The position numbers were made by a program, and so were the translations under genes. A stretch of 64,000 nt of DNA from Bradyrhizobium manausense (GTDB lineage Bacteria > Pseudomonadota > Alphaproteobacteria > Rhizobiales > Xanthobacteraceae): positions 434,001-498,000 of the forward strand of contig NZ_JAFCLG010000001.1 in NCBI RefSeq assembly GCF_018129685.1, in the 5' to 3' direction. Numbering within the stretch: position 1 is the first letter of the stretch; the number at the start of each line of letters is the position of its first letter. The notes beneath the pieces were generated by a model. That model saw nothing but the letters and a program-made list of their open reading frames with translations, was not told the origin of the DNA and searched no databases. Below are positions 3,586-25,911 of the stretch, one piece after another.

Positions 3586-3588
3586 TCC

Positions 3589-9962: not shown

Positions 9963-10274
9963 CCTGTGCTGCGCGTTCTCTTGCAAGGAGAAGCCAGACG
10001 AGGCCCGGAAATGGAGGCGAATCCAACCGGGCCTCGCGACCAGCGACGCCCTGGGCGGCGTTGCCAATGGCTGGGATGGCTGACGGGCCGGTTGCCCATG
10101 AATCACCCCGTCGTGCTGCTTCAGGCTAGACGACCGGCCTGACGCCCGCCTGACACGGTGTGCCGTCAAGAGTCTGCGTTTTTCCACACCCACGACGCGC
10201 TGTAGCTCTCGCGCTCACTGAGGCCCTACCTGTTGACAATTTGACTTTGGCCGACCTCGCGTTTCGATGGCGGC

Positions 10275-10508
10275 ATGATTGTCCGCATCATCAAGCACGA
10301 AACCGTACCCGGTACCGGCAGCTACGAGGTGCGCTTCGCTGATGGGCGCCGGAGTCGCTATTTTTATTTCGACGATCTTCCCTCGCGCCGGCTGCGACCG
10401 GGACAGATGCCGCGTGAGCAAGCACTCGATTGGGCAAAGATGTTCGCGCGAATTATGCGAAGCAACATTGAAGGCTGGCATGAACCAAGCGGCTCGTCAG
10501 CGCGATAG
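10275..10508 (+). CDS. conserved hypothetical protein, 77 aa
   Basis: MIVRIIKHETVPGTGSYEVR reads as a small cytoplasmic protein: a beta-rich N-terminal half (SYEVRFADGRRSRYFYFDD) followed by a helical half (REQALDWAKMFARIMRSN). It has no signal peptide or membrane helix and no known motif. The competing frame starting at 10279 has unlikely composition. It is preceded by a ~380-base gap and ends ~60 bases before a bidirectional terminator-like hairpin. Function unknown. Confidence 0.55.
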   Translation: MIVRIIKHETVPGTGSYEVRFADGRRSRYFYFDDLPSRRLRPGQMPREQALDWAKMFARIMRSNIEGWHEPSGSSAR

Positions 10509-10570
10509 TTGAGCCTGCTCGGCCGAGCTGGAGCCTCATCTCTTTCAAATTCAAGAGGTGGTGCGAATGC

Positions 10571-10598
10571 AAAAAAGCCCCGGCATAGCCGGGGCTTT
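10571..10598 (-). terminator. rho-independent terminator, probably bidirectional
   Basis: An 11-bp perfect stem, AAAGCCCCGGC / GCCGGGGCTTT, with an ATA loop. Read on the minus strand it ends in six Ts, just downstream of the outer-membrane protein gene at 10619-11395. On the plus strand it ends in TTT and could also serve the gene ending at 10508. Confidence 0.85.
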
Positions 10599-10618
10599 GA
10601 TGTCTCGTTGGCGATTGA

Positions 10619-11395: not shown

Positions 11396-11515
11396 GACTG
11401 CTCCCCAGCAAATACTGCTTGAGTGCTACCAGCTTTTCTCAACTTTGACCGTCGCCGGAGGGCAACAGTGGCGAGCAAATTGGACAAGTTGTCGCAGTCG
11501 TCACGTCTCGTCTAA

Positions 11516-11699
11516 AACGTCCATCCGAAGGTGGTTCTGGAACGGCTTGGGCACGCCAGCATGGCGATCTCGATGGATCATTGATTCCCATCCGATGCCG
11601 AACATGCAGGGGGACGCGGCGGCGGCTGTTGACGGAGTGCTGCGCGCCGCCATAAACAAGCGCGCCGACGACGTCGGGCGGCAAAACGGTCGCAAGTGA
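11516..11699 (+). pseudogene. decayed tyrosine recombinase (phage integrase) C-terminal fragment
   Basis: Bases 11516-11581 read NVHPKVVLERLGHASMAI then SMDH, the core of the XerC/integrase C-terminal domain (LGH-S-x-x-x-T/S-x-x-x-Y-S-H). The frame then meets TGA at 11582. Removing one base (G at about 11583) restores Y-SHPMPNMQGDAAAAVDG and an alanine-rich tail running to the stop at 11697-11699. The catalytic tyrosine codon is destroyed by this insertion, and a TAA lies immediately upstream at 11513-11515, so this is a dead remnant. It sits 52 bases before tRNA-Ser, a classic integration context. Confidence 0.75.
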
Positions 11700-11751: not shown

Positions 11752-11841
11752 GGAAGGGTGGCCGAGTGGTTTAAGGCACCGGTCTTGAAAACCGGCGTGC
11801 CCGCAAGGGTACCGTGGGTTCGAATCCCACCCCTTCCGCCA
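11752..11841 (+). tRNA. tRNA-Ser (anticodon UGA)
   Basis: 90 nt including an encoded CCA. The acceptor stem GGAAGGG pairs with CCCTTCC, the D arm is GCC...GGC, the anticodon stem CCGGT/ACCGG encloses loop CTTGAAA (anticodon TGA at 11786-11788), a long class-II variable arm follows (CGTGCCCGCAAGGGTACC), and the T arm is GTGGG-TTCGAAT-CCCAC with discriminator G. It decodes UCA/UCG-type serine codons. Confidence 0.97.
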
Positions 11842-12243: not shown

Positions 12244-14727
12244 TCAGCGCGGCGGGTCATCGGTGCGAGGCACGGTCGTGCGCCGAAGGTCGTCAATCAG
12301 CTTGGTGAGATTGGGGTCCCCCGGTGTGATGACGGCGAGGCGCTGCGCATAGGTCAGCGCGGCTTCTCCATCGCCGTCTGTGCGACTGAAGGCAATGAGC
12401 GCGGAGAGGATGCTGCGATCGTTGGGATGGCTGGTCAGGGCCTGTTTAAGGACCGTCATGGCTTCGCCAGCGTGGCCGGCTGAATGGAGCGCTACCGCGT
12501 AGACATAGGCGTATTGCGAACTATCCGGCTGCAGTTCGGTCGCCCTCTGGAATTCGGCAAGAGCTTCGTCCGGTCGTTTCAGCCGTGTCAAGGTTAGCCC
12601 GAGCGCATGGCGGACCGCTGCGTCGCGAGGAGACGTCGTGATCGCCGTACGCAGCACATTCTCGCCGTCGCCGTTCCTGCCGAGTTGCCGATAAAGATCC
12701 GTGAGATTGATGGCTGCGACTGTATATTGCGGGCTCAGCCGCAAGGCGGCCTTGTATTCCGCCTCGGCCTCAGCCGATTGTCCCCGCTGCGTCAGGAAAT
12801 TTGCCAGTGTCGTCCGTGCCTCGGGCCTCTCGGCGTTGGCCCGTTGCGCATCGACGAATTCCGTTGCGACGCGATCGAAGCGCGCACGATCTGCTTGAGG
12901 TTGTCTTGCGACAGGCACGGCTGCGAGCAGCGAAACTGCTCGGATCCTGACGCCTCGCACGGGGTCGGCCAGGAGAGGAGCTGCCAGTGACCATATCTGG
13001 GCAGCCGGCAGGTTAGCCAGCATATCGAGTGCACCGATCCGAACCATCGGGTCGGGATCGGACAGTCCGTTTCGCGCAGCTGTGACATTCGCTGGTGAAA
13101 CGCGCGAGGCGAGTTCGCTGAGCGCGCTGGCGCGCGCGACGGCCGGTACATTTTTGTCCGCGGCGATGATGCCGAGAAGTGCTGCAGCATCGGCCGCATC
13201 GGTGCGCGCGGCGTGGAAGGCGGCGCCGTAGGTCTGAAAGCCCTTTCGGTCGGGCCCGAACCATTGCTCGACGGCCGCCGCGGCCCAATCGGCGGGTTTG
13301 TCGTGGTGACAATCGTTGCACGCATTCGGGGTGCCCAGCGTGACCGACAGGTCGGGCCGTGGGACGCGGAAGGTGTGGTCGTGGCGGGGATCGACGACCA
13401 TAAAGGTGCGCGTCTGCATATGGCAGGAGATGCAGGTCGGCTGTGGCTCGACCCCGCCGTGGTGATGGTGCTTCGCGTCGGCGAATTTGTCCGGCGCGTG
13501 ACATTGCAGGCAAACGCCTTGGCCTGAAACGCGGAGCTTTGCGCCATGGGGCTCGTGGCAGTCGCTGCAAGTGACGCCGGCGGCAAACATCTTGCCTTGC
13601 TTGAATGGCGTATAATTGTACGGCTCTTCGACATCACGGATTTGGCCGTCGGGATGATAAGTGGTGCGCGCGAGCGGCTCGACCACATGGGTCTGGGACA
13701 GCCACTGGCCGGGCATCCAGTCCTCGTGGAAGCCGGCGCGCCGCGCGTGGCACAGTCCGCAGGTTTCGACCTCCTTGCGAAGGGTGGCAGGCGCAACGCT
13801 CCGTTTGCCGATACCGGTTTGCGGATCAATCGGCCAGGTCACGCCATGACGTTCGTCGAACAGGGCGAGCAGTCCCTTGCTGGGATCGCCGCGCTTGCCG
13901 AAAGGCCACCAGTTTTGCTGCTCCCGCGCCCATGCCACATGACGCGAACCCTGGCCGTGGCAGGCTTCGCAACCCACGCTGATCTCTGCCCAGCTTGTCG
14001 CAAAGTGGTCCGTCTTGGCATCGTAGTTTTTGCGCACCCCCGTGGAGTGGCACTCGGCGCACATGAAATTCCAATTCTGGTTCAGTTTGGTCCAGTGCAG
14101 GACATCGTCGTGCTTGATCTCCTCATTGGGATAGATGTGAAACCAGCGCTGGCCGCCCTTGTCCTGCGGTCGGCTGTCCCAGGCGATCGAAAGCGCTTGA
14201 ATGCGGCCGTCCGGAAATTCGACCAGATACTGCTGCAGCGGATCGACCCCAAATGTGTATTTCACCTCATAGGCGGCGAGCTGGCCGTCCGGTCCGTCGG
14301 TCTCGACCAAAAATTTCCCGTCCTTGCGGAAGAAACGCGAGTGGACACCATAGTGGTCGAAGCTGGCCTCGTTGAAGTTGCCGAGCACTGTCTTCTCGGT
14401 GGCGTGTTGCATCGCAACCTTGTGCTGCGAGGCGCTCCAGAGCTTTGCTTCGGTCTGATGACAGCCCGCGCAGGCTTCGCTGCCGACGAAGGACGCGGCT
14501 GCGTAGTCCTGCGTACCGGAGACCAATCCGCCGGTATTCAAGATATAAAGGGCAAAAACAGAAGCAAGGAGGATCAACGCGAGCGAAATCGCGATCCAAA
14601 TTGGCCGCTTGGTGGAGCGAGGAGCAGCAAGTGCTGGCAACGCCTTTGATCGCGACCTGTCTCCAGCGGGATCGCTTTTTGATCCCCGCCTGCCGGTGGA
14701 CTTTCGTTGCTTGCGTGCCAACGACAT
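12244..14727 (-). CDS. octahaem cytochrome c with C-terminal HEAT/TPR region
   Basis: About 827 aa from ATG 14727 (a TTG further upstream at 14796 is possible). One N-terminal TM segment (WIAISLALILLASVFALYI) anchors a periplasmic protein. Eight CxxCH haem sites follow in order: CAGCH, CAECH, CEACH, CGLCH, CSDCH, CLQCH, CISCH and CNDCH. The C-terminal half has HEAT-like repeats (PMVRIGALDMLANLP, GVRIRAVSLLAAVP) then several TPRs (AEAEYKAALRLSPQYTVAAIN, DEALAEFQRATELQPDS). This resembles doubled-CXXCH/cytochrome c554-type multihaem proteins fused to TPRs. Electron transfer is likely; the partner and substrate are unknown. The cyclase gene lies upstream on the same strand. Confidence 0.85.
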   Translation of the reverse strand: MSLARKQRKSTGRRGSKSDPAGDRSRSKALPALAAPRSTKRPIWIAISLALILLASVFALYILNTGGLVSGTQDYAAASFVGSEACAGCHQTEAKLWSASQHKVAMQHATEKTVLGNFNEASFDHYGVHSRFFRKDGKFLVETDGPDGQLAAYEVKYTFGVDPLQQYLVEFPDGRIQALSIAWDSRPQDKGGQRWFHIYPNEEIKHDDVLHWTKLNQNWNFMCAECHSTGVRKNYDAKTDHFATSWAEISVGCEACHGQGSRHVAWAREQQNWWPFGKRGDPSKGLLALFDERHGVTWPIDPQTGIGKRSVAPATLRKEVETCGLCHARRAGFHEDWMPGQWLSQTHVVEPLARTTYHPDGQIRDVEEPYNYTPFKQGKMFAAGVTCSDCHEPHGAKLRVSGQGVCLQCHAPDKFADAKHHHHGGVEPQPTCISCHMQTRTFMVVDPRHDHTFRVPRPDLSVTLGTPNACNDCHHDKPADWAAAAVEQWFGPDRKGFQTYGAAFHAARTDAADAAALLGIIAADKNVPAVARASALSELASRVSPANVTAARNGLSDPDPMVRIGALDMLANLPAAQIWSLAAPLLADPVRGVRIRAVSLLAAVPVARQPQADRARFDRVATEFVDAQRANAERPEARTTLANFLTQRGQSAEAEAEYKAALRLSPQYTVAAINLTDLYRQLGRNGDGENVLRTAITTSPRDAAVRHALGLTLTRLKRPDEALAEFQRATELQPDSSQYAYVYAVALHSAGHAGEAMTVLKQALTSHPNDRSILSALIAFSRTDGDGEAALTYAQRLAVITPGDPNLTKLIDDLRRTTVPRTDDPPR

Positions 14728-14823
14728 CCTCAGTGTTGAGACCGCGATGCTACGATCCGGGCAGTGCCAGGCATCATCGGTCGGCCTTCCGGCCAATTCA
14801 AGTGGAGCGGCCCAGGCCCTTAG

Positions 14824-16557
14824 CTATTTGTCGACGCGCGACGATCCGTCCCAGTTCTGAGGCGGCGGGCTTTCCTTGAGCTCTTCGCTGCGTTTGAGCA
14901 TCGCGATCGATGGTCCGTCGCCCGGCATCGCTTCGAGCGATGCACCGAACTTGGCGACGGCTTCGTCCCATCGCCGATCTCGGTAGGCTGCAAGGCCTTC
15001 CGAATATCTCTCCCGCAACGTGACCTGTTCCGGCAGGAGCTTGCCTTTAGCCCCGAGGATTTCAAAGACGACTTCGGAATGGGTGTGGCCTGCAACGACG
15101 ATCCGATCGATTTCCCGGACCTCGACCGCAGCGGTCGCAGCAACAACTGTTCTTTCAGAGACCAGATTCCGAGTCCCGTACGCCTTGTTCGCGCCTTCGA
15201 GCCGCGAGGCGAGGTTTACGACGTCACCCATGACGGTGTAGCTCATCATGACGTCGGACCCGATGCTCCCGACCAACGCTTCTCCGGTCGCAACGCCGAT
15301 ACGTATGTCGCAGGTTTCCATGGGGGTGCCGAGCACACCAAGCAATTCAGGGATTTCACGGCGCAATGTCGCGATGCGCTCGATCATCTCGAGGGTCGCC
15401 TGGCATGCGAAGCGTGCGTGGTCCGCTTCGTCGACGAAGGGAGGGCCCCAATAAGCCATGATGCCATCGCCGATATACTTGTCGATGATCCCTCGGTGAG
15501 TGCGGATCGGTTCGGACATGATCGAGAGGTAGCGGTTCATCACCTTGACCAGACCTTGCGGGGTCATCCCCTCGCTGAGGCTGGTGAACCCCTTGAGGTC
15601 GCAGAACAACACCGTCATCACCCGGCGCTGGCCCTCGGCCGCCGTGAGGTTCGGCCGCTCTATAAGTCCCTCCACGACGCGCGGATCGATGTATTTGCCA
15701 AACGTCTCCCTGACACGCTGATTGTCGCGCAGCTGCACGACCATCCGGTTGAACGCCGCAGCGAGTTGACCGATTTCGTCGGCTGTACGTACGTCGATGG
15801 ATTGATCGAGATGGCCCGCCTCGACGGCGCGCGTACCGTCGAGCAATTGCCGGACGGAGCGAATGATGCCGCCGCTGACGAAATTGGCAAAGATCAGCCC
15901 GACGATCGCCGCGAGCGCCGTCACGATTGCCGAGGTCAGCACGGCCTGGGTCTGTTCCGACCTGATGATTGCAATTGCGCCGTAGCTCACTTTCAGCATG
16001 TCGGCGCGGACGGCTTCGACCTTCTCATCGAACTCGTCGCGCAACGCGTCGGTCCTGGCAAGGCTTCGCCGTACGGCCGCGAAATCACGCGTTTCGAGCG
16101 CGGCGATCAACTCGGCCGACTCCTGTTTCAAATGATGCCGGAACTCGCTGACCAGACTGTCGACCCGGCTGTCGATGCGCGCCAGCGCGGTGTTGTCGGA
16201 CGGCGTGCTCGTGTCCGCCATCACGGCGCCGATGAGCTTGCGCGCTGCGTCGGCCTCCTGGTCGACCTCCGCGTCCTTGGCGTCGTATAGCTGCTTTCGT
16301 GCCCGGTATCCGATTTCGTCGGGAGGGTCCTGCAGCTTCGAAATCACCATTCGGCGCAGGGCGAGGGCCCGCTCAAAGGACAGAATGCTAATTCGCGTGA
16401 GATGCGCGTTTGCGGGGATGTACCTATCGGTGATTTCGTCCAGCAGATGGCCGACCCTCCCGACCATCACCATCGACAGAACCGATGTCGCGACCATGAG
16501 GACAATCAGCCCGACGGCTATGGCAACGATGCGCTGTCTGATCGATTGCCTGATCAT
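14824..16557 (-). CDS. membrane adenylate/guanylate cyclase with HAMP domain
   Basis: About 577 aa from ATG 16557 (MIRQSIRQRI); an ATG at 16620 would add 21 residues, and neither has a strong ribosome-binding site. It has an N-terminal TM helix, a ~160-residue periplasmic helical sensor region, a second TM, a HAMP domain (GTRAVEAGHLDQSIDVRTADE) and a class III cyclase domain. Metal ligands are visible in LFCDLKGFTSLSEGM and KYIGDGIMAYWG. It probably makes cAMP in response to a periplasmic cue. It is transcribed toward the octahaem gene (~100-base gap) and divergently from the sigma-54 unit at 16.9 kb. Confidence 0.87.
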   Translation of the reverse strand: MIRQSIRQRIVAIAVGLIVLMVATSVLSMVMVGRVGHLLDEITDRYIPANAHLTRISILSFERALALRRMVISKLQDPPDEIGYRARKQLYDAKDAEVDQEADAARKLIGAVMADTSTPSDNTALARIDSRVDSLVSEFRHHLKQESAELIAALETRDFAAVRRSLARTDALRDEFDEKVEAVRADMLKVSYGAIAIIRSEQTQAVLTSAIVTALAAIVGLIFANFVSGGIIRSVRQLLDGTRAVEAGHLDQSIDVRTADEIGQLAAAFNRMVVQLRDNQRVRETFGKYIDPRVVEGLIERPNLTAAEGQRRVMTVLFCDLKGFTSLSEGMTPQGLVKVMNRYLSIMSEPIRTHRGIIDKYIGDGIMAYWGPPFVDEADHARFACQATLEMIERIATLRREIPELLGVLGTPMETCDIRIGVATGEALVGSIGSDVMMSYTVMGDVVNLASRLEGANKAYGTRNLVSERTVVAATAAVEVREIDRIVVAGHTHSEVVFEILGAKGKLLPEQVTLRERYSEGLAAYRDRRWDEAVAKFGASLEAMPGDGPSIAMLKRSEELKESPPPQNWDGSSRVDK

Positions 16558-16737
16558 CGATCCGGAGAACGTCTTCAGGCCCGGAAATGTGCGAGTGCTG
16601 GAAATGGCACGCCCTCCCATGCGTCTGCTGTTTATGCGCAGAGCGAGTATTCGGCCGAGAGCAGCCGCCTCTGTTGATATGAGTCAAATGGATTGTCCAA
16701 ACCCACCAGGGACAGCGTTTGTCGGCGTCAGATTTAA

Positions 16738-16772
16738 CTCCGAGATTTCGGAGAAGCTCCGACATTTCGGAG
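16738..16772 (+). promoter_or_regulatory. tandem palindromic operator (putative UAS of the sigma-54 activator)
   Basis: CTCCGAGATTTCGGAG (16738-16753) and CTCCGACATTTCGGAG (16757-16772) are two near-identical 16-bp palindromes (arms CTCCGA/TCGGAG, 4-base centre), spaced 19 bp start to start, about two helical turns. They lie ~132 bp upstream of a -24/-12 promoter. The same pair at the same spacing recurs before the arylsulfatase gene. Binding by the activator encoded at 19303 is inferred. Confidence 0.75.
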
Positions 16773-16868
16773 CCTGGAGACCTCGGTCGTTGATCAAGAC
16801 CCTGGGACCGATCCAGTCCAGCACTGATTGGCCACGCGTTTTCGGTCGGGTGGTGAACGCCGGCCTGT

Positions 16869-16883
16869 TGGCCTGCTTCTTGC
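16869..16883 (+). promoter_or_regulatory. sigma-54 (-24/-12) promoter
   Basis: TGGCCTGCTTCTTGC matches the sigma-54 consensus TGGCACG-N4-TTGCW, with GG at 16870-16871 and GC at 16882-16883 (10 bases between). Apart from two positions it is identical to the promoter at 21131. It should drive the monooxygenase-like, HdeA-like and hydrolase genes. Confidence 0.75.
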
Positions 16884-16932
16884 GAACCTCAGCGCGGTAA
16901 TCGCCAACAGATGCGACTGAAAGAAGCAGCCT

Positions 16933-17265
16933 TTGATCGTGTTCTCGCTGGAGATCGTGGCGCCGGACCGGGTGAGAACCGCATTGCTGCGTACGCTTGG
17001 ATCGGTGATCGAACCTACCCGGGTTGCGCCGGGCTGTCGCTCGGTTCGACTCTTTACCGATCTCGACAGGCGAAGGTCCCTCGTTTTCGTCGAGGAATGG
17101 GAGACGCTCGAACAATTCGAACTCAATCTCGATGCGACAAAGCTCAACACCATCGTTGGAGCCATCGAGCTCTCGGGTGAGGCACCACTGGTCCGCATCG
17201 ACACCATCGAGCGGGAGGAGGGCGTCGATGTTCTGGCGCTGCATCAATCCGGCGTCGGAAGGTAA
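16933..17265 (+). CDS. antibiotic biosynthesis monooxygenase (ABM)-fold protein, quinol-monooxygenase-like
   Basis: 110 aa from TTG 16933; no in-frame ATG fits. The ferredoxin-like ABM pattern is visible: strand IVFSLEIVAPDRV, helix, APGCRSVRLFTDLDRRRSLVFVEEWET, then a helix (LEQFELNLD) and a final strand. Relatives of this fold (YgiN-like) are cofactor-free quinol or aromatic oxygenases, though many are of unknown function. It is the first gene after the sigma-54 promoter at 16869, and the HdeA-like gene follows after 39 bases. Confidence 0.65.
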   Translation: MIVFSLEIVAPDRVRTALLRTLGSVIEPTRVAPGCRSVRLFTDLDRRRSLVFVEEWETLEQFELNLDATKLNTIVGAIELSGEAPLVRIDTIEREEGVDVLALHQSGVGR

Positions 17266-17304
17266 ATCCCGGGCACGCAATATCTGAATGGAAGGCAGGT
17301 CTAT

Positions 17305-17637
17305 ATGCGGAAATCACCCATCGTGGCGGCGATGTTCCTCGGTGCCATCTCCGTTGCTCACGCTCAGGTCGAGCTGAAGAACTACGCAGACGCAAACGGC
17401 TATATTGACGTGCAGAAGCTGACATGCGCGCAGTTGGCGGGCACGTATCAGGAAGATGCCGACTTTTTGGGGATCTGGTATAGCGGCTGGTACAACGGCC
17501 TCGCAAAGAAGCATGCGATCAACGTGTCGCGTACCAAAGCCGGAATTCACAACGTCATCGTCTATTGCAAGGCAAATCCCGGCAAGAAGGTGATCGAAGC
17601 GATCGACGTCATTCTGAAGGATGAAAAGAACCAGTGA
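17305..17637 (+). CDS. HdeA/HdeB-like periplasmic acid-stress protein
   Basis: 110 aa with a signal peptide (MRKSPIVAAMFLGAISVAHA). The mature part has two cysteines, KLTCAQLAG and VIVYCKANP, at the spacing of the single disulfide in HdeA, and the region FLGIWYSGWYNGLAKK typical of HdeA-family proteins. HdeA/B are small periplasmic chaperones that unfold at low pH and protect clients. Whether this one is acid-responsive is unknown; here it sits in an apparent sigma-54 operon. Confidence 0.78.
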   Translation: MRKSPIVAAMFLGAISVAHAQVELKNYADANGYIDVQKLTCAQLAGTYQEDADFLGIWYSGWYNGLAKKHAINVSRTKAGIHNVIVYCKANPGKKVIEAIDVILKDEKNQ

Positions 17638-17807
17638 TCAAGCGGCGCGTGTCGGAGCGCGCGCTGTCGACATCAAACGACGGCATCTGCGGGAAGGTCC
17701 AGCCCGGCCAAGGCCGCATAGCAGGACGCTTGATCGAGAACAAATCGACGGCCTCGAAAGACTGCGCGGAGGCAATTCAAAAGGTCGAGGCAATGGCCGC
17801 CCCATAA
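17634..17807 (+). CDS. possible small protein, 57 aa, coupled to the HdeA-like gene
   Basis: A frame starting at GTG 17634 overlaps the HdeA-like stop (GTGA) and reads VIKRRVSERALSTSNDGICG...KVEAMAAP before TAA 17805. The four-base overlap resembles translational coupling, and the C-terminal half looks helical and protein-like (CAEAIQKVEAMAAP). There is no signal peptide and no recognised family. It could equally be a chance frame. Confidence 0.3.
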   Translation: MIKRRVSERALSTSNDGICGKVQPGQGRIAGRLIENKSTASKDCAEAIQKVEAMAAP

Positions 17808-17976
17808 GTGAAGGACGCGGACGGAGCCGTGGAAGTCGGCTTCGCGAGGTGAGACCATACCGCTGTTCACCAATTGCCCTTGCGGGCCACTCCTCACCAT
17901 TGTGATCATGGCCGATTGTCGTAAGGTGGAAGGCCTCTCGAGCGCGAGAGATGTAGAGTCCGGATCAAGCAGCGTA

Positions 17977-19065
17977 ATGGCCAGATCTCAGCGTGTCGCA
18001 ATGTACGCAGCGGTGGTCGTTTCGCTTGCGCTTGGTGGCTGCAGCGGTCGCCCGTCGCAGGGCGTGCTCGTTCCGGTGACCGAGACTTTCGCAGGAGCAT
18101 CCCGCGTTCCGGTGCTCGTGGCGACAACCCGTCAACGTTCCGAGGCGGACAGAGGCGAGATGTTCAGCAGCGAGCGAGGCGAGGCGGTCGCCTACGCCGC
18201 GATTACCGTATCGATACCGCCGGACTCAGGACGCGAGGTCGGTCAAATCCAATGGCCTTCCTCCATCCCAGGCGATCCCCACCGCGACTTCGTGACCGTG
18301 TCGGCGGACTACATCGACAAGCCGACCTTTTTTAACTCGGTCACCGCGCAGGCGAAGCAGGCGCGGCCCGGTAAGGTGCTCATCTTCGTCCACGGCTTCA
18401 ATAACAAGTTCGACGACGCGGTTTACCGGTTTGCCCAGATCGTCCACGACTCCAAGGCGCCCGGTATTCCGGTGCTGTTTACCTGGCCATCGCGCGGCGA
18501 GCTCAAGCTGCGCGCCTATACTTACGATCGCGAGAGCGCCAACTATTCGCGCGATGCGCTCGAGGAGCTCATCGATACCCTGGACCGCAACCCGAATGTC
18601 AGCGAGGTCAATATTCTCGCGCACTCGATGGGAAACTGGGTCGCGCTGGAGGCGCTGCGGTCACGCTACATCAGGCCCGGTCGCTTCGTGGACAAGCTCA
18701 AGAACGTCATGCTCGTTGCGCCGGACGTCGATGTCGATGTCTTTCGCACCCAGATTCGCCGGATGGGAGCAAGGCGACCGCGATTTGCGCTGTTCGTGTC
18801 CCAGGATGACAAGGCACTGGCCTTGTCGAAGACCATCTGGGGCGGAGGGCCCCGGCTTGGAGAGGTCAATCCTGAGCAAGATCCATGGCGCAGCGAATTG
18901 GTTCGGGACCAGATCGAGGTCTTTGACCTGACAAGCCTCAGGAAGCCCGGGGATGACGCGCATGATCGGGCTTTCTCGGATGTGACCTCTGTTGTCGGAA
19001 TGATCAAGCAACGGCTCCGGGAGGGGCAGCAAATGACGGACACCAAGTCGATCAGTATGGACTAG
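17977..19065 (+). CDS. alpha/beta hydrolase lipoprotein (DUF900-like)
   Basis: 362 aa from ATG 17977. The signal ends in a lipobox (SLALGGC), so it is probably a lipoprotein. The alpha/beta-hydrolase core shows KVLIFVHGFNNKFDDAVYR (oxyanion strand), VLFTWPSRGE, and nucleophile elbow NILAHSMGNW, where Ser sits in AHSMG rather than the usual GxSxG. MLVAPDVDVDVF probably supplies the acid. This pattern is typical of DUF900 proteins, whose substrates are mostly unknown. It lies downstream of the HdeA-like gene and upstream of the activator gene, all on one strand. Confidence 0.8.
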   Translation: MARSQRVAMYAAVVVSLALGGCSGRPSQGVLVPVTETFAGASRVPVLVATTRQRSEADRGEMFSSERGEAVAYAAITVSIPPDSGREVGQIQWPSSIPGDPHRDFVTVSADYIDKPTFFNSVTAQAKQARPGKVLIFVHGFNNKFDDAVYRFAQIVHDSKAPGIPVLFTWPSRGELKLRAYTYDRESANYSRDALEELIDTLDRNPNVSEVNILAHSMGNWVALEALRSRYIRPGRFVDKLKNVMLVAPDVDVDVFRTQIRRMGARRPRFALFVSQDDKALALSKTIWGGGPRLGEVNPEQDPWRSELVRDQIEVFDLTSLRKPGDDAHDRAFSDVTSVVGMIKQRLREGQQMTDTKSISMD

Positions 19066-19248
19066 CCACCGAAGGGGCTCTTGGTGTGGCGGCTTTGCCC
19101 GAAGTGCGGCTTAAGACCTCCTGGCCGTTGATGTGGATCAACCGGTCGTTTCTCAATCTGATACTGTGGAACCGGGAGCGAGGCCTGGAGCACGATTTCG
19201 GCTTTTCTCAAGTCTGGCGCCCGGTGATACCGGCGCGTCGTTCTCCCT

Positions 19249-19290
19249 GGAATTTCGGAATTTCCCATCGTTCCATCCCGAATTTCGGGA
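19249..19290 (+). promoter_or_regulatory. putative autoregulatory palindromes before the activator gene
   Basis: GGAATTTCGGAATTTCC (19249-19265) and TCCCGAATTTCGGGA (19276-19290; arms TCCCGAA/TTCGGGA) contain the ATTTCGG core of the CTCCGA-N4-TCGGAG operators. The second ends 12 bases before the start codon and overlaps the ribosome-binding site, which would suit self-repression. The spacing differs from the tandem UAS, so binding is an inference. Confidence 0.45.
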
Positions 19291-19302
19291 GTACAGGTGC
19301 CA

Positions 19303-20907
19303 ATGGCAGACGCGATGTCTCTCGGCAAGCCGTCTTTAGTGAGGACAGGACCCGGCGCGTCGGCCGATGAGCGCTTGGCGTTCGAGCGCTTGCTCGTGGA
19401 TATCTCCTCAAAATTCGTGAATTTAGCCGCCGATGAGCTCGATGCCGTCACACAGACGTCTCTCCTTCGGGTTCGCGAATTTCTCGGTTTCGATCGGGTA
19501 AGTTTCGGCGAACTCGTCGAGAACGGTTTGATGGATATCCTGTACTCAAGTGCAGTCGAGGGTATCGATCCGGTGCCGAGCGGAAGTCTTTCGCTGGATT
19601 TTGTCTGGTACCTGCGCAAGCTTCGCGGCGGCGAAATGATCGTTCTTCAGACGCTGCCGGATGATCTGCCGCCGGAAGCAATCGCCGAAGCCGAATATTG
19701 TCGGAGCGCCGGCTTTCGCGCGCACGTGAACATCCCGATCCGCGTTGGCGGACGCTTCTCCGGATTCCTTGCCTTTGGATCGTTCCGGGAATCCCGACAG
19801 TGGCCGGTCGATCTGATCGCCAGGGCCAAGCTCATTGGCGAAATCATCGCGCAGGCGTTTGAGCGCAAGCGATCCGACGAAAAGCTCGCCGCGGCGCTGG
19901 CTGAGGTCAGGAGTCTCAAGGACCGCCTCGAGCAGGAAAATGCGTACCTTCGAAATGTCGTGCATGAGAAGCTGCCACAAGGTCTTGCAAGTCGCTCCCC
20001 ACGTTTCCAGGAGGTTGTCGAGGAGGCGGGCCAGGTCGCGCAAACAAACGCCACGGTTCTTTTGCTTGGCGAAACCGGCAGCGGCAAGGAAGTTCTGGCG
20101 CAGGTCATTCACGATGCAAGCGCCCGGAAGGACCGACCGATGGTCAAGGTCAATTGCGCAGCGCTGCCGGCGACCTTGATCGAATCGGAGCTTTTCGGTC
20201 GCGAAAAGGGAGCGTTCACCGGCGCAATCGCGCGGCAGGCGGGCCGCTTCGAGATCGCCGACGGTTCCACGATCTTTCTCGATGAAATCGGTGAACTGCC
20301 GCTTGAACTCCAGCCCAAGCTTCTGCGCGTGCTGCAGGAAGGAGAATTCGAGCGTTTGGGCGGCTCGCGGACGATCAAGGTCGATGTCCGCGTCATCGCT
20401 GCGACCAACCAGGATCTCGCACAGGCGGTTCGCGAGGGCAGGTTTCGGGAGGATCTGTTCTACCGGCTTGACGTATTCCCGATCGAATTGCCGCCGCTAC
20501 GCGAACGTCGCGAGGACATTCCGCTGCTGTCGTGGACATTCGTCAAGGAGTTCAGCAACTCGATGGGCAAGCAGATCGAGAAGATATCGCCGGACTCGAT
20601 GAGCGCGCTGACAGCCTATTCCTGGCCTGGCAACATCCGCGAACTTCGCAATGTGGTCGAACGTGCGATGATCCTCGCGCATGGTCCGGTGCTGCACGTC
20701 AAGCTGGCGCACAAGCCACTTCAACTCGATCCGGCAAAAGCGACGGACGGTACATTGGATCAGGCAGAGCGCGCGCATATCGTGCGTGCGCTCGACCGGT
20801 GTGGCTGGCGCATCCGTGGTATCGGCGGCGCGGCCGAGCAGCTTGGCATCAAGCCGACAACTCTCGAATCCCGCATGAAGAAACTCGGGATCGTTCAGGC
20901 GCGGTAA
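19303..20907 (+). CDS. sigma-54-dependent transcriptional activator (GAF-AAA+-Fis)
   Basis: 534 aa from ATG 19303 (GTG 19297 is an alternative); GGGAG lies ~11 bases upstream. Residues ~25-185 form a GAF-like sensory domain (LLVDISSKFVNL, VREFLGFDRVSFGEL, ARAKLIGEIIAQAFERK), then a coiled-coil linker. The AAA+ domain has Walker A GETGSGKE (~256), the sigma-54 contact loop GAFTGA (~303) and Walker B TIFLDEIGE, with DLFYRLDVFPIELPPLRER and SWPGNIRELRNVVER. A Fis-type helix-turn-helix closes the protein. This domain order resembles FhlA/NorR-type activators. It lies between two sigma-54 promoters with matching operators and probably controls both. Confidence 0.93.
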   Translation: MADAMSLGKPSLVRTGPGASADERLAFERLLVDISSKFVNLAADELDAVTQTSLLRVREFLGFDRVSFGELVENGLMDILYSSAVEGIDPVPSGSLSLDFVWYLRKLRGGEMIVLQTLPDDLPPEAIAEAEYCRSAGFRAHVNIPIRVGGRFSGFLAFGSFRESRQWPVDLIARAKLIGEIIAQAFERKRSDEKLAAALAEVRSLKDRLEQENAYLRNVVHEKLPQGLASRSPRFQEVVEEAGQVAQTNATVLLLGETGSGKEVLAQVIHDASARKDRPMVKVNCAALPATLIESELFGREKGAFTGAIARQAGRFEIADGSTIFLDEIGELPLELQPKLLRVLQEGEFERLGGSRTIKVDVRVIAATNQDLAQAVREGRFREDLFYRLDVFPIELPPLRERREDIPLLSWTFVKEFSNSMGKQIEKISPDSMSALTAYSWPGNIRELRNVVERAMILAHGPVLHVKLAHKPLQLDPAKATDGTLDQAERAHIVRALDRCGWRIRGIGGAAEQLGIKPTTLESRMKKLGIVQAR

Positions 20908-21003
20908 CGGCCCGGACTTCGGGAGGCCGGTCGTTCGCAGGCGCGCGTCTCATCCCAAGATCAACGGCACTGAGCATTCAACGACACGCGTGGAACGGCG
21001 GAC

Positions 21004-21038
21004 CTCCGATATTTCGGAGAGCCTCCGATATGTCGTGC
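21004..21038 (+). promoter_or_regulatory. tandem palindromic operator (putative UAS) before the arylsulfatase gene
   Basis: CTCCGATATTTCGGAG (21004-21019) is a perfect copy of the 16-bp operator. CTCCGATATGTCGTGC (21023-21038) is a second copy with a degenerate right arm. Start-to-start spacing is 19 bp, as at 16738. The distance to the -24 GG is about 128 bp, against 132 bp at the other site. Confidence 0.75.
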
Positions 21039-21130
21039 GCGATTCCGTCAGGCTGCGCGGGTGGCGTATCGACCGTCAGATAACTCGCTGATCCCGCATC
21101 AGTTTTTTTCAGGATGCCGATCGAGCGTGC

Positions 21131-21145
21131 TGGTCCGCTTCTTGC
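21131..21145 (+). promoter_or_regulatory. sigma-54 (-24/-12) promoter for the arylsulfatase gene
   Basis: TGGTCCGCTTCTTGC has GG at 21132-21133 and GC at 21144-21145, exactly 10 bases apart, and shares the CTTCTTGCGA 3' half with the promoter at 16869. It lies ~125 bases upstream of the arylsulfatase start. Confidence 0.75.
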
Positions 21146-21271
21146 GAGGTGAGAGACCAGCGACCGGCTAGGCTAGTCGCCTTGTGCTTGTGGGCAGGCG
21201 GCGACCTGCGGCAATCCGAGCCTACGTATTCGGCGGCGCTCGCCGGCAATGGGATCACGAGAGGCAGAAGC

Positions 21272-22882
21272 ATGAAGAATCTCAGACGGGCAATATTTGC
21301 AGCGCTCGGTCTTGCGGCGGTTTTGCTGCAGTTCGCGCCGGCCCAGGCTCAGGCTCAGGCGCCCAAGAAGCCCAACATCCTGATCATCTGGGGCGATGAC
21401 GTCGGCCCGTTCAACGTCAGCGCCTACAATATGGGGATGATGGGTTACAAGACCCCGAACATCGACAGCATCGCGCAGCAGGGAGCCGTCTTTACCGACT
21501 GGTACGGCCAGCAGAGTTGCACCGCGGGCCGCGCGGCGTTTATCACCGGGCAGTCACCCATTCGAACCGGCCTCACCAAGGTTGGTCTGCCAGGCGCCCC
21601 CGAGGGCATCAAGAAGGAAGACCCGACACTCGCTGAGCTCCTCAAGCCTCTCGGTTACACCACGGGCCAGTTCGGCAAGAACCATCTGGGCGACCGCAAC
21701 GATATGTTGCCGACCGTCCATGGCTTCGATGAATGGATGGGCAATCTCTATCATCTGAACGCCGAGGAGGAACCGGAGAACGTCGACTACCCGAAGGATC
21801 CTGCGTTCAAGGCGAAGTTCGGTCCGCGCGGCGTGCTGCATTGTCTGGCGACGGATAGCGATGATCCGACCGATGATCCGCGCTTCGGCAAAGTTGGCAA
21901 GCAAAAGTGCGAAGATACTGGTCCATTGACCAGGAAGCGCATGGAGACCGTCGACGAAGAAGTCACAGCCGGAGCGATCAAGTTCATCGACAAGGCGGTC
22001 AAGGAGCAAAAGCCATTCTTTGTCTGGTGGAATTCTTCCCGCATGCATGTCTTCACGCACCTGAAGAAGGAGAGCGAAGGCAAGACCGGCCTGGGCATCT
22101 TTGCGGACGGAATGGTCGAGCACGACGGCATGGTTGGCCAGTTGCTGGCCGAGCTGAAGGCGCTTGGCGTCGATAACAATACTATCGTCATGTACTCCAG
22201 CGACAACGGAGCTGAATCACTGTCGTGGCCCGACGGCGGCACGACGATGTTCCGGGGCGAAAAGAATACGCCCTGGGAGGGAGGGTTCCGAGTTCCCACG
22301 CTGATTAGCTGGCCCGGCGTTATCAAGCCCGGCACTGTCATCAACGGCCTCGGTGCGCACGAAGACATGTTGCCGACATTGCTCGCGGCGGCGGGCGACA
22401 CCACGGTCACGGAGGATCTGCTGAAGGGCCGAAAGATCGGCGACATGACCTACAAGGTGCATCTCGACGGCAGCAACCTGATCCCGTTTTTAAAAGGCGA
22501 AGTGAAGGACTCGCCGCGCCAAGCCTTTATCTACTGGACTGATGACGGCAGCGTCGCGGCGCTGCGCTACCGCGATTACAAAGTGATGTTCCTGAAACAG
22601 AATGCTTTGGGTCTCCGTGCCTGGCAGCATCCTTTCGAGGAACTGCGCGCGCCGCTCATCACCAACTTGCGGATGGACCCGTTCGAGCGCGCGGAAGAAG
22701 AAAATGCGATGGGTTATCAGCGTTGGTACATCGAACACATGTACGCCTTCGCGCCCGCGGCGGCGTATGTCGGCGGTTGGCTGCAGAGCTTCCGCGAATT
22801 CCCGCCGCGGATGAAGCCCGGCAGCTTCAGCCTGGACCGCGTCATGGAGGCGGTGACCGCACCGCCGAAGGGCAGCAACTGA
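21272..22882 (+). CDS. arylsulfatase (type I, formylglycine)
   Basis: 536 aa from ATG 21272 after GAGAGGCAGAAGC. It has a signal peptide (FAALGLAAVLLQFAPAQA), so it is exported. PNILIIWGDDVGP carries the paired metal-binding Asps; SCTAGRAAFITGQSPIRTG holds the C-x-A-x-R motif in which C83 would be converted to formylglycine. GQFGKNHLGD, VMYSSDNGAE and the late MFRGEKNTPWEGGFRVP are further sulfatase-family blocks. It hydrolyses sulfate (or related) esters outside the cytoplasm, possibly for sulfur scavenging. Conversion by a formylglycine-generating enzyme is required; none is seen in this window. Expression is probably sigma-54 dependent. Confidence 0.92.
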   Translation: MKNLRRAIFAALGLAAVLLQFAPAQAQAQAPKKPNILIIWGDDVGPFNVSAYNMGMMGYKTPNIDSIAQQGAVFTDWYGQQSCTAGRAAFITGQSPIRTGLTKVGLPGAPEGIKKEDPTLAELLKPLGYTTGQFGKNHLGDRNDMLPTVHGFDEWMGNLYHLNAEEEPENVDYPKDPAFKAKFGPRGVLHCLATDSDDPTDDPRFGKVGKQKCEDTGPLTRKRMETVDEEVTAGAIKFIDKAVKEQKPFFVWWNSSRMHVFTHLKKESEGKTGLGIFADGMVEHDGMVGQLLAELKALGVDNNTIVMYSSDNGAESLSWPDGGTTMFRGEKNTPWEGGFRVPTLISWPGVIKPGTVINGLGAHEDMLPTLLAAAGDTTVTEDLLKGRKIGDMTYKVHLDGSNLIPFLKGEVKDSPRQAFIYWTDDGSVAALRYRDYKVMFLKQNALGLRAWQHPFEELRAPLITNLRMDPFERAEEENAMGYQRWYIEHMYAFAPAAAYVGGWLQSFREFPPRMKPGSFSLDRVMEAVTAPPKGSN

Positions 22883-22978: not shown

Positions 22979-23398
22979 ATGAGCAATCCGTCCCGTCGTG
23001 ACGTGTTGGGCGCATCAGCGGCGGCGGCCGCTACGGTCCTCCTGGGCAGCGAACCAGTCGCAGCGGCGGAGGGGAAGACGACTTTCACCATCCTGCACAC
23101 CAACGACCTCCACTCCAACTTGGTCGGGATGGCGCCGGCTTCCGACTACACGCCATTCACGCTCAACGACGACACGACCCGCGGCGGGTTTGCACGTCTT
23201 GCAACCTTGGTCTCGCAGCGGAAAGCGGCGCGCGCGGGGCAGGGACCGGTGCTGATCCTGGACGCCGGGGACTATAGCATGGGGACCGCGTTCGGTTCGG
23301 CCACCCGCGAAACCGGCGGCGAATTGCAGTTCGCGCCGCCGAGGCGCGAGCGATCAAGGTTGGGTGAGTACCAGAGGAGGGCATGGCAAAGAACGTGA
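22979..23398 (+). pseudogene. truncated metallophosphatase/5'-nucleotidase (N-terminal fragment)
   Basis: The first ~117 residues are a good UshA-like N-terminus: twin-arginine signal (SRRDVLGASAAAAA), metal site FTILHTNDLHSN and second block LILDAGDYSMGTAFG. After ETGGELQ (about base 23330) the sequence changes to FAPPRRERSRLGEY and stops, losing the GNHE/D block, the remaining metal ligands and the whole C-terminal nucleotidase domain (full proteins are ~500-600 aa). The junction runs straight into the upstream region of the DUF2252 gene, consistent with an internal deletion. It is probably non-functional. Confidence 0.75.
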
Positions 23399-24774
23399 TC
23401 AGAACCGTTGAACAACGCCGTAAAGCAGGCAGGTTGCTGCGGGGCGGGTGTCCGCGCGCGTCGCATGCCAGTACCGGTGTCGGGCGCGGCAAGAAGCGCG
23501 ACATCGTCGCAATGATCAAGGCGTCGAACCAGGACCGGGTCGAGACCCTGATCCCGATCCGGCACGGCCGTATGCTCCAGTCCGAATTCGCGTTCTTTCG
23601 CGGCACGGCCGCGCTTCAGGCCCACGATCTGGCCGGCACACCTTCCAGCGGAATCACGGTCCAGTCATGCGGCGACTGCCATCTGATGAATTTTGGCGGA
23701 TTTGCCACGCCGGAACGAAATCTGGTGTTCGACATCAATGATTTCGACGAGACGTTTCCGGCGCCGTTTGAATGGGACCTGAAACGGCTGGCCGCGAGCT
23801 TCGTGATTGCCGCGCGCTGGCGCGGGTTCCGGCCCGATCAAGCGAAGGAGATAGCGGCTGAAGCCGCTCGCTCTTACCGGAAGTCGATGCGAGAGCACGC
23901 TGGGCGCGGGATCCTGGAAGGCTGGTACGCCAAGATAACGCTCGAAGATGTCCGCTCGGTCTTCGGCGTGAATGAACAGGCCCGGCGCCACGTGGACAAG
24001 AAGGCCGCCGAAGCGCAAAGGCAGACCAACGAGCACGTCGCGAACAAGATTACGGCGCCGACCTCCAGAGGGCGTTTGCGCATCGTCGACCAGCCCCCTC
24101 TGCTTTACCACGCCGACAAGCGGGACGTGAACGAGCGCACTCTGGCGGAGTTCTTCAAGCAGTATCGCAATACTCTGGCCGAAGAGCGTCGCATGCTCTT
24201 CGACCGCTTCGAATTGGTCGATGCGGCCGTGAAGGTCGTTGGTGTGGGGAGCGTCGGAACGCGCTGCTATGTCGCGCTTTTCCTCGCCGCGCCGGACGAT
24301 CCGTTGTTCCTCCAGGTCAAGGAGGCGCGCCGTTCGGTACTGGAGCCCCACCAGCGGCATTCTCCTGCAGCGCACAACGGCCAACGCGTCGTGACCGGAC
24401 AGCGTCTGATGCAGTGTTCGAGCGATATCTTCCTCGGCTGGTCAAGGGGGCCCGGCGGTCGCGATTTCTATGTACGTCAGCTTCGCGACATGAAGGTTGC
24501 CCCCGAGGTGGAGGCGCTGACGCCGCGAATGATGCGAGCCTACGCCACCCTTTGCGGTCAGGCGCTGGCACGCGCCCACGACAAGGCTGGCGATGCGGCA
24601 ACAGTCGCGGGTTATCTGGGCGGCAGTGACGAATTCGACGAAGCGATCGCGGAATATGCTGTAGCCTATGCTGATCAGGCTGCGCGCGACTATGCGAGCT
24701 TCGTCAACGCCGTGCGGGCAGGCGAACTGAGTACCGACGTAAAACCTGGCAAGCTCGAAGTCGCGTTGAGATGA
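23383..24774 (+). CDS. DUF2252 family protein
   Basis: 463 aa from ATG 23383 after an excellent AGAGGAGGGC site; it overlaps the end of the truncated phosphatase frame by 16 bases. DUF2252 marks are RHGRMLQSEFAFFRGTA, SCGDCHLMNFGGFATPERN and VFDINDFDETFPAPFEWDLKR. The pair GDCHxxNFG ... D-I-N-D-F-D resembles the catalytic and metal loops of aminoglycoside phosphotransferase-like kinases, so a small-molecule kinase is conceivable, but no DUF2252 activity is firmly established to my knowledge. It has no signal peptide and is probably cytoplasmic. It may be cotranscribed from the sigma-54 promoter at 21131. Confidence 0.85.
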   Translation: MAKNVIRTVEQRRKAGRLLRGGCPRASHASTGVGRGKKRDIVAMIKASNQDRVETLIPIRHGRMLQSEFAFFRGTAALQAHDLAGTPSSGITVQSCGDCHLMNFGGFATPERNLVFDINDFDETFPAPFEWDLKRLAASFVIAARWRGFRPDQAKEIAAEAARSYRKSMREHAGRGILEGWYAKITLEDVRSVFGVNEQARRHVDKKAAEAQRQTNEHVANKITAPTSRGRLRIVDQPPLLYHADKRDVNERTLAEFFKQYRNTLAEERRMLFDRFELVDAAVKVVGVGSVGTRCYVALFLAAPDDPLFLQVKEARRSVLEPHQRHSPAAHNGQRVVTGQRLMQCSSDIFLGWSRGPGGRDFYVRQLRDMKVAPEVEALTPRMMRAYATLCGQALARAHDKAGDAATVAGYLGGSDEFDEAIAEYAVAYADQAARDYASFVNAVRAGELSTDVKPGKLEVALR

Positions 24775-24855
24775 AACGGATATCGAAGCTTGCCGGTTCG
24801 ATCGCCCCGAAGGCGAACAGATGTTTGATTGTCACCAGATCGCGGGAGTCTTGCC

Positions 24856-25911
24856 ATGCCACGTAATGCGCCGGGATTTCGGACGATTGGCTTCGCGGCA
24901 GCGGGCGCGCTTCTCGCGCTCTCACCTGGCGTTTCTCGCGCCGACGAGAGCGGCATATCGTTCTGGTTGCCCGGGTTATATGGCAGCCTCTCCGCCACTC
25001 CCACCACGCCCGGCTGGTCAGCGGCTGCGATCTACTACCACACCAGCGTCAACGCATCGGGCGCGGCTGCGGCAGCGCGGGAAGTCCAGGTCGGGAGATT
25101 TTCTCCCACCGTCAACGTCAACCTGAATGTTGCTCTGAGCGGCCAAGCCGATCTGATGTTCGTGGCTCCGACCTATACGTTTGCAACGCCGGTACTCGGG
25201 GGCCAGTTGTCGGCAACGCTTGCCAGCGTCTACGGAAGAAATTCCGCGAACGTGGCTGGCACGTTGACGGCGACCGCGGGGCCGATCGTCACCACGCGGA
25301 ACGGATTTCTCGAAGATGCTCTCGTCTCCTATGGGGATCTCTATCCGACCTTCAAGCTCAAGTGGAACAACGGCGTTCACAACTACATGGTTTACGGTGC
25401 CGGCGACATTCCTGTGGGTGACTATAGTGCGAACCGGCTGGCCAACTTGGGCATAGGCCACGGTGCGATCGACTTCGGCGGCGGGTACACCTACCTGAAC
25501 CCGGCGTCAGGCGTGGAGTTATCGGGCGTCGGCAGCTTCACCTACAATTTCAAGAATCCCACGACACAATACCAGAGCGGTATCGATTTTCACTTCGACT
25601 GGGGCGTGTCGCAATTCTTATCCAAGCAGGTTTTCTTTGGGTTCGTCGGCTATGCCTATCAGCAGATCACCGACGACTCCGGCCAGGCGGCCGTTCTCGG
25701 CGCATTCCGCTCGCGCGTTTTCGGCATCGGCCCCCAAATTGGATATATTTTCCCGATCGGAGCCAACCAGGCATTCCTGGGCGTGAAGGGATATGGCGAG
25801 TTCAGCGCCGCCAACCGGCCATCCGGCTGGAACACCTGGTTGATGTTCTCGATCTCCGAAGCCGCCCCGGCCAGCACAGTGACGCCGACCAATCACCTGG
25901 TGAGGAAGTAG
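24856..25911 (+). CDS. outer membrane MetA-pathway/SphA-like beta-barrel transporter
   Basis: 351 aa from ATG 24856 (GCGGGAGTCTTGCC upstream). A signal peptide (GFAAAGALLALSPGVSRA) precedes GISFWLPGLYGSLSATP, the typical opening of 'phenol-degradation MetA' or SphA outer-membrane proteins. Long amphipathic strands follow (LMFVAPTYTFATPVLGG, IDFGGGYTYLNPASG, QVFFGFVGYAYQQITDDSG). These proteins are thought to pass hydrophobic compounds across the outer membrane. Its position after the sulfatase and DUF2252 genes suggests uptake of the sulfatase substrate or product. The 81-base gap leaves room for its own promoter. Confidence 0.75.
   Translation: MPRNAPGFRTIGFAAAGALLALSPGVSRADESGISFWLPGLYGSLSATPTTPGWSAAAIYYHTSVNASGAAAAAREVQVGRFSPTVNVNLNVALSGQADLMFVAPTYTFATPVLGGQLSATLASVYGRNSANVAGTLTATAGPIVTTRNGFLEDALVSYGDLYPTFKLKWNNGVHNYMVYGAGDIPVGDYSANRLANLGIGHGAIDFGGGYTYLNPASGVELSGVGSFTYNFKNPTTQYQSGIDFHFDWGVSQFLSKQVFFGFVGYAYQQITDDSGQAAVLGAFRSRVFGIGPQIGYIFPIGANQAFLGVKGYGEFSAANRPSGWNTWLMFSISEAAPASTVTPTNHLVRK

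Follow-up and report, generated by a model that had tools for sequence, protein, structure and literature searches.

A putative local sigma-54 regulon with a repeated enhancer-promoter module in Bradyrhizobium manausense

Genes and regulatory elements of the locus

The window analysed in this study is a stretch of 64,000 nucleotides from Bradyrhizobium manausense (RefSeq assembly GCF_018129685.1, contig NZ_JAFCLG010000001.1, positions 434,001 to 498,000 of the forward strand). It contains the gene of a predicted sigma-54 activator, a bacterial enhancer-binding protein (bEBP) of the GAF-AAA+-Fis type, located between two intergenic regions in which palindromes of the form CTCCGAN4TCGGAG precede -24/-12 promoters. 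An initial annotation, made from the nucleotide sequence alone, had described positions 16738..21145 as a self-contained sigma-54 regulon with duplicated enhancer-promoter modules. The core elements, including sequences resembling sites of the integration host factor (IHF), were located by sequence match and the gene families were assigned with Pfam:

16738..16753, + strand: enhancer palindrome 1a, CTCCGAGATTTCGGAG
16757..16772, + strand: enhancer palindrome 1b, CTCCGACATTTCGGAG, 19 bp from 1a and 112 bp away from the TGG
16817..16829, - strand: position of the IHF-like element of module 1, weak in this module and standing out as a cross-module average only
16869..16884, + strand: -24/-12 sigma-54-type promoter of module 1, TGGCCTGCTTCTTGCG
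16933..17265, + strand: ABM-fold protein gene (PF03992), from the commonest first-gene family of the modules
17305..17637, + strand: HdeA-family periplasmic protein gene (PF06411)
17902..19065, + strand: gene of a predicted lipoprotein alpha/beta hydrolase (PF05990, DUF900)
19297..20907, + strand: GAF-AAA+-Fis sigma-54 activator gene with intact GAFTGA motif (Pfam, alignment)
21004..21019, + strand: enhancer palindrome 2a, CTCCGATATTTCGGAG, perfect
21023..21038, + strand: enhancer half-site 2b, CTCCGATATGTCGTGC, degenerate in its right half, 9/12 fixed bases
21081..21093, - strand: IHF-like element of module 2, TAACTCGCTGATC, at -50 relative to the TGG
21131..21146, + strand: -24/-12 sigma-54-type promoter of module 2, TGGTCCGCTTCTTGCG
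21149..22882, + strand: sulfatase-family gene (PF00884), likely true start at ATG 21272, with signal peptide
23383..24774, + strand: DUF2252 gene (PF10009)
24829..25911, + strand: Phenol_MetA_deg outer-membrane-type barrel gene (PF13557)

Most of the described layout was recovered. The start-to-start spacing of the palindromes is 19 bp, the promoters TGGCCTGCTTCTTGC at 16869 and TGGTCCGCTTCTTGC at 21131 follow the first palindrome by 132 and 128 bp (to the GG), the activator gene sits between both promoter regions, and the gene families that had been named were borne out by Pfam. The claim that palindromes are paired in both regions stood for region 1, with two perfect copies, whereas region 2 has one perfect copy and a half-site.

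All four domains of the activator, GAF, AAA+, lid and Fis (HTH_8), score above the Pfam cut-offs; the AAA+ sigma-54 interaction domain (PF00158) reached 242 bits and the Fis-type DNA-binding domain (PF02954) 31.3 bits against a cut-off of 22. The GAFTGA motif is present in the activators of the window, G504 (both copies), G541, G506 and G648 and reads GAYTGA in those of loci L018–L020, and the sequence KPTTLESR in the recognition region is invariant in nine of nine aligned proteins. The activator of locus L016, whose assembled reading frame breaks near 10985, was for that reason omitted from this alignment. In L016 the activator frame is in two parts (9983–11605) and the DUF900 gene in pieces (9228–9604), reflecting either decay or sequencing error. 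L016 and G647 are one contig, as are G648, G565 and L017. The activator remained below the NCBIfam cut-offs for NifA, FhlA, NorR and all others among the best 25 of 27 matched families. Among 7997 scored public proteins, 3579 relatives were found at E ≤ 1e-120, and the 120 listed are mostly metagenome-derived. The gene for sigma-54 itself, rpoN, is present as a single copy outside the locus (PF04552, 1.4e-70).

A further palindrome, TCCCGAATTTCGGGA (19276), lies before the activator gene and was considered as an autoregulatory site. It was dropped, for its centre comprises 3 bases and its half-sites differ; nothing like it was seen by eye in nine other activator upstream regions. Among these, G648 has a tandem pair with 21-bp spacing, L020 one perfect palindrome, and G506 and L019 weak single ones.

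Distribution and architecture of the enhancer-promoter module

Genome-wide pattern searches were performed in the source genome (G000, 7.48 Mb). With at most one mismatch, CTCCGAN4TCGGAG occurs at 35 sites, five of them exact and three of these five in the locus; the reversed control gave 17. Single palindromes with at most two mismatches show no enrichment across the window (7 against 5.96 expected), and hence the arrangement, i.e. exact, tandem and promoter-linked copies, was tested instead. A module promoter 60–260 bp downstream was found only at the three local sites when the surroundings of all 35 were scanned, in agreement with the initial statement that the arrangement is too regular for chance. 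Near the other 32 sites, the best promoter match comprised 13/16 bases of TGGYCYGCTTCTTGCG and lacked the GC of the -12 element. Two of these 32, L007 and L247, have a GG-N10-GC element with 9/11 bases of the general sigma-54 consensus (at 214 and 132 bp, respectively), so that a weak distant target is conceivable. The genome has two exact copies of TGGYCYGCTTCTTGCG, at 16869 and 21131, both within the locus, to which the tandem enhancer is likewise confined.

Across the genus, enhancer and activator occur together. Five of 265 same-genus genomes have the activator (E ≤ 1e-130), and the tandem enhancer (at most three mismatches) is present in the same five and in none of the other 260 (reversed control 0). 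All 16 forward sites (G000 2, G504 4, G506 1, G541 8, G565 1) lie on the contig of the activator, within ~30 kb of an activator gene. The probability of such a match, 1/C(265,5) = 9.5e-11, ignores relatedness and is hence optimistic, and the weight of the comparison rests on the 260 negatives, since the window and the loci of the five positives had served to define the pattern. The exact promoter pattern is confined to the loci in G000 (2/2), G504 (3/3), G541 (4/4), G647 (3/3) and G648 (1/1) and has no occurrence in G506 and G649–G651. In an order-wide sample the activator was found in one of 397 genomes, the source genome itself, and a plasmid collection had no match at E ≤ 1e-100. Genome G504 (contig C1) carries two paralogous activators 23 kb apart (7952632–7954287 and 7975689–7977299), each with its own ABM gene; cross-talk between them is likely because the enhancers near both have the same core.

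The architecture was examined in 25 two-palindrome modules from eight genomes (G000, G504, G506, G541, G647, G648, G649 and G651). A module comprised two palindromes with a summed score of at least 19/24, each at least 8, within a searched spacing of 17–23 bp, and a promoter was a GG-N10-GC element matching at least 11/16 bases; for module G649a, the promoter at 111 bp was used and not the equally scoring element at 100 bp. Excluded were promoterless tandem pairs (two triplets in G541 and one pair in G648), overlapping pairs with spacing 18 in G541, one chance pair in G506, and the single-palindrome cases L019 (at -124) and L020 (minus strand, at -111). The triplets, on contig C41 of G541 (9104–9144 and 21998–22038), consist of palindromes spaced by 19 and 21 bp and lack a module promoter in their vicinity; they lie ~170–210 bp upstream of two outer-membrane barrel genes, where the activator might act without sigma-54 or as a repressor.

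The palindrome spacing is 19 bp in all 25 modules. From the proximal palindrome to the TGG, the distance is 111–115 bp in 20 of them, 102–103 bp in three, 108 bp in window module 2 and 186 bp in one, the last corresponding to +7.05 turns at 10.5 bp per turn. All modules except window module 2 (24/25) deviate by at most 0.3 turn from a whole number of turns relative to 112 bp. In G541, two palindrome pairs each face two divergent promoters, 7547/7581 at 112 and 103 bp and 33041/33075 at 112 and 112 bp. When the modules were aligned on their promoters, an IHF-like element stood out at -52 (mean score 4.68/9 against 2.61 over all offsets, reached in 0/2000 rotations), and a T-tract lies after it near -28. 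In general, IHF sites are common between the enhancers and promoters of sigma-54 systems (PMC7962754).

The word 'duplicated' in the initial annotation cannot be taken literally for the window, where the spacers of modules 1 and 2 are unlike (z score -0.5). Orthologous spacers are alike: window module 1 resembles its counterpart in L016 (z 8.0), and window module 2 those in G504 (z 11.6) and L016 (z 5.0). The spacer of window module 1 is unlike its G504 counterpart (z -0.9). Given unlike spacers within the window and alike orthologous ones, selection on geometry explains the likeness of the window modules better than recent copying.

Predicted target genes, FixK2-type boxes and genomic location

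The 25 modules precede about a dozen gene families, checked with Pfam. The ABM-fold gene is the first gene in nine modules (window, L016, L017, G504 twice, G541, G506, L152 and L020). Its alignment has 21 invariant residues across nine sequences with identities down to 35%. At E ≤ 1e-10, 120 public proteins are related to it, and, counted by eye, 8/120 ABM-related clusters have a longest contig whose length is identical to that of one of the 120 listed activator clusters, which suggests shared contigs. The other first genes belong to about eleven families, many of them likely acting in the envelope or periplasm. The sulfatase gene is first in modules of the window, G504 and G541 and follows a small open reading frame (ORF) in L016; further first genes encode OpgC (G504, L016), DUF308/HdeD (L016), PPK2 (L018) and a MetA-type barrel (G504), and in G541 DUF900, DUF2092, DUF992 (twice), HAD, a periplasmic binding protein and a PAS histidine kinase. 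An HdeA gene comes after ABM in the window as well as in G541. In L152, a Chromatiaceae assembly, the ABM gene is followed (3529–7857) by genes for a pyridine-nucleotide-disulfide oxidoreductase with rhodanese, a phosphotransacetylase-family protein and an acetate kinase.

No terminator-like site was found on the + strand between 17265 and 19297, and thus the first transcript might run into the activator gene, creating a positive feedback. A weak terminator-like hairpin of 6 pairs (21165–21179) is located downstream of the second promoter and ahead of the likely sulfatase start; terminator-like sites are rarer around it than in shuffled sequences, and it is possibly meaningless. Between the sulfatase and DUF2252 genes, an ORF of 139 aa (22979–23398) resembles a truncated gene; it has a twin-arginine translocation signal and the beginning of a metallophosphoesterase/5'-nucleotidase-SoxB-like domain.

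Further features lie around and to the left of the core:

11752..11841, + strand: tRNA-Ser(TGA) gene, at the left of the variable region
12244..14796, - strand: TPR/multihaem cytochrome gene (Pfam), also in L016, G504 and G541
14824..16620, - strand: divergent HAMP/adenylate-guanylate cyclase-family gene (Pfam), also in G504
16674..16687, + strand: second FixK2-type box, TTGATATGAGTCAA, between cyclase gene and enhancer, at the same place in G504 and L016
19128..19141, + strand: FixK2/FNR-type box upstream of the activator gene, TTGATGTGGATCAA, a consensus match conserved in G504 and L016

Both boxes fit the FixK2 consensus TTGA/C-N6-T/GCAA of Bradyrhizobium diazoefficiens, in which FixK2 also controls rpoN1 (PMC6710368). 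They stand out in alignments of the three orthologous loci of the window, L016 and G504. In these three, a conserved TA-containing element also follows the activator box by ~30 bp, a distance that corresponds to class II spacing. The strict FixK2 pattern with at most one mismatch occurs five times in the window against 1.01 expected (0/100 shuffles), and TTGATNNGNATCAA at 18 places genome-wide with none in the reversed control. The divergent cyclase gene of the window has no sigma-54 promoter above threshold; in L016 only the first part of the HAMP-cyclase was matched, and a FixK2-type box precedes the cyclase gene. G504 also has a strict FixK2-type box, TTGATCCATATCAA (C1, 7968178), which precedes by ~60 bp a divergent sulfatase gene located between its two activators.

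The locus lies in a variable region beside the tRNA-Ser gene. In three of five relatives without the regulon, the left core gene lies ~85–100 bp away from the tRNA gene, and the core (window 44.1–44.7 kb) resumes 2.9, 4.5 and 9.2 kb after the tRNA gene, placing the regulon within a variable region of ~34 kb (roughly 10155–44083); the other two had no right-hand match in the stretch compared. The cluster extends beyond the range first given to the regulon, to the left with the recurring TPR/multihaem and cyclase genes, and the variable region reaches to ~44 kb. An RND efflux operon (OEP, ACR_tran, HlyD_D23; 27115–33309) is part of the same region. Neither an integrase among the subset of window ORFs scanned with Pfam nor repeats of the tRNA-Ser 3' end of at least 14 bases in the window, as attachment sites, were detected. 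In G541 (C41, 42–43 kb; L188 2034–3135), a phage-type integrase overlaps the end of a tRNA-Leu gene just past the nine-promoter cluster.

Proposed regulation and comparison with known systems

The central proposal of the initial annotation, one activator acting through one enhancer on several local sigma-54 operons, is supported by the presence of the enhancer in all five genomes with the activator and in none of the 260 without, by the confinement of the exact promoter to this locus within the genome and by a module kept before orthologous and non-orthologous genes alike. We consider it probable that the variable region beside tRNA-Ser harbours a local sigma-54 regulon under the control of a GAF-AAA+-Fis activator encoded within it. 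The activator is predicted to bind the tandem palindromes 16738/16757 and 21004(/21023), and a DNA loop, likely bent by IHF, would bring it to the promoters at 16869 and 21131. The ABM-HdeA-DUF900 genes are the predicted targets of the former promoter, the sulfatase-DUF2252-MetA-type genes those of the latter. Activator binding, IHF involvement, promoter activity and operon extents are deduced from the nucleotide sequence. With less certainty, a FixK2/FNR-type factor may induce the activator gene, together with the divergent cyclase gene, at low oxygen, and a GAF ligand or a redox cue may release the ATPase. Judging from the gene families, the output would be a remodelling of the envelope and periplasm by sulfatase, HdeA/HdeD, OpgC, the DUF900 lipoprotein and outer-membrane barrels, with the ABM protein as its most constant member. 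'Self-contained' describes the locus in part, since rpoN is located elsewhere and the conserved FixK2-type boxes point to an oxygen input from the host.

Several observations weigh against this interpretation and have to be set beside the alternatives. With one mismatch, TGGYCYGCTTCTTGCG has two further genome matches, both outside the locus (2/4 at this threshold). Single palindromes (at most one mismatch) also occur outside the loci, 32/35 in G000 and 7/19 in G647–G651; five of the latter seven were scanned and had no module promoter. Tandem enhancers without a recognisable -24/-12 element exist in G541 (both triplets) and G648 (9823/9844), and the activator may for this reason also act in another way. 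The same sites would fit palindromes that are operators of an unrelated regulator, e.g. a repressor, with sigma-54-like motifs downstream by coincidence. Such a coincidence is very improbable in view of the matching presence of palindromes and bEBP gene across the 265 genomes, of a promoter distance of 111–115 bp in 20 of 25 modules and off by near-whole turns in four of the other five, and of an exact promoter pattern found nowhere else in these genomes. We give still less credit to the idea that NtrC or NifA of the host drives the promoters in place of the local protein. All three are AAA+ activators of sigma-54, and NifA is the best NCBIfam model of the local activator, though below its cut-off; yet AAA+ activators are common in the genus, with matches at E ≤ 1e-60 in 36 of 36 genomes (source genome included), and the 260 genomes without the local activator have no tandem enhancer.

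Other difficulties concern individual parts of the proposal. In window module 2, the second palindrome is broken and the promoter lies 4 bp too close, -0.38 turn off the usual phase; on both grounds this module is possibly weaker than module 1. It might even be a recent copy of the first region or a decaying remnant without its own function. We regard this as unlikely, for its -24/-12 element is intact, its spacer resembles the sulfatase modules of G504 and L016 and not module 1, and imperfect palindromes occur also in these two (the second, CTCCGATATGTCGGGC, in G504; both, CTCCGATATTTCGGGC, in L016). Some copying is possible in G504 and G541, in which the highest within-locus spacer likeness has z scores of 6.0 and 5.9 (10 pairs) and 4.9 (36 pairs), respectively, compared with 2.0 (6 pairs) in G647. 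The IHF signal is an average position only, drawn from orthologous modules that are non-independent, and in 22 of the 25 single modules the best spacer score was equalled by at least 10% of shuffles. Since gene content varies much, 'envelope' denotes a theme and not a pathway. The gammaproteobacterial cases are known from short contigs (5–18 kb) of metagenome assemblies. Most debatable is the role of oxygen. FixK2-type boxes precede three of ten activators (window, L016, G504a) and are absent within 300 bp of the other seven, and with the loose consensus the window has two boxes against 1.94 by chance; the boxes may thus be fortuitous and the activator constitutive, switched only by its GAF ligand in a regulon otherwise as described. 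This explanation comes fairly close to an even chance. Against it stand the orthologous positions of both boxes in three divergent loci and the excess of the strict pattern and of TTGATNNGNATCAA over their controls. For the source-genome locus only, we judge oxygen control somewhat more probable than its absence.

We further propose, tentatively and with more doubt than confidence, a portable sigma-54 circuit common to alpha- and gammaproteobacteria, in which the activator would travel with a standard enhancer-IHF-promoter module before the cargo of each island, plugged into the FixK/FNR oxygen control of the host, with the ABM-fold protein as the most constant output. If the proposed regulon exists, it would be a new one that sequence alone suffices to recognise. 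Its 25 promoters would be a natural set with near-constant spacing, helical phase and perhaps IHF position but a diverged remaining spacer, and hence a test of the geometry that sigma-54 enhancers actually need. The ABM clade, DUF2252, DUF900, DUF992 and DUF2092 would gain a common regulatory context and a testable inducing condition, and the limitation of the enhancer to carriers of the activator would make the locus a good test case for the possible transfer of entire control circuits between bacteria.

The locus belongs to the class of bEBP/sigma-54 regulons and, by its NCBIfam scores, lies outside the NorR, FhlA and NifA equivalogs. The literature covered (titles and abstract openings, with thin coverage of subscription journals) held no description of this regulon; an outer-surface theme has been proposed for sigma-54 (PMC3162934). 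NorR is similar as a one-component GAF-AAA+-Fis protein with multiple enhancer sites before a -24/-12 promoter, and the three enhancer sites that precede norVW are essential (PMC2941729). In contrast, the present activator scored 345 bits against the equivalog cut-off of 476, acts presumptively on two palindromes spaced by 19 bp at 1–9 target promoters per cluster, and is encoded at a locus whose annotated genes do not include norVW. FhlA shares the GAF-AAA+-Fis architecture, and many metagenome relatives are labelled 'formate hydrogenlyase transcriptional activator'; the score, however, was 378.6 bits against a cut-off of 830, one GAF stretch was found, and no formate hydrogenlyase genes are among those annotated here. 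NifA, the top NCBIfam match, is likewise a GAF-AAA+-Fis activator with upstream sites, and nif promoters are IHF-assisted. Here, the activator reached 390.4 bits against 528.85, no nif genes are among those annotated at the locus, and the palindrome differs from the NifA site TGT-N10-ACA. The boxes resemble those of the FixK2 regulon of B. diazoefficiens, whereas the accessible text on that regulon names no sigma-54 activator of this family as a target (PMC6710368). A parallel in organisation is provided by Desulfovibrio regulons, in which 10 of 13 one-component enhancer-binding protein genes co-localise with predicted sigma-54 operons and the sites are palindromic (PMC4641369). As in Desulfovibrio, the activator gene resides beside its own predicted sigma-54 operons. 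Those regulons were reconstructed within one order, whereas the layout described here is patchy, from Bradyrhizobium-type genomes to gammaproteobacterial assemblies, and rigidly spaced. Within its class, the locus is unusual in this rigid, repeated promoter layout and in a lead gene that lacks an assigned function.

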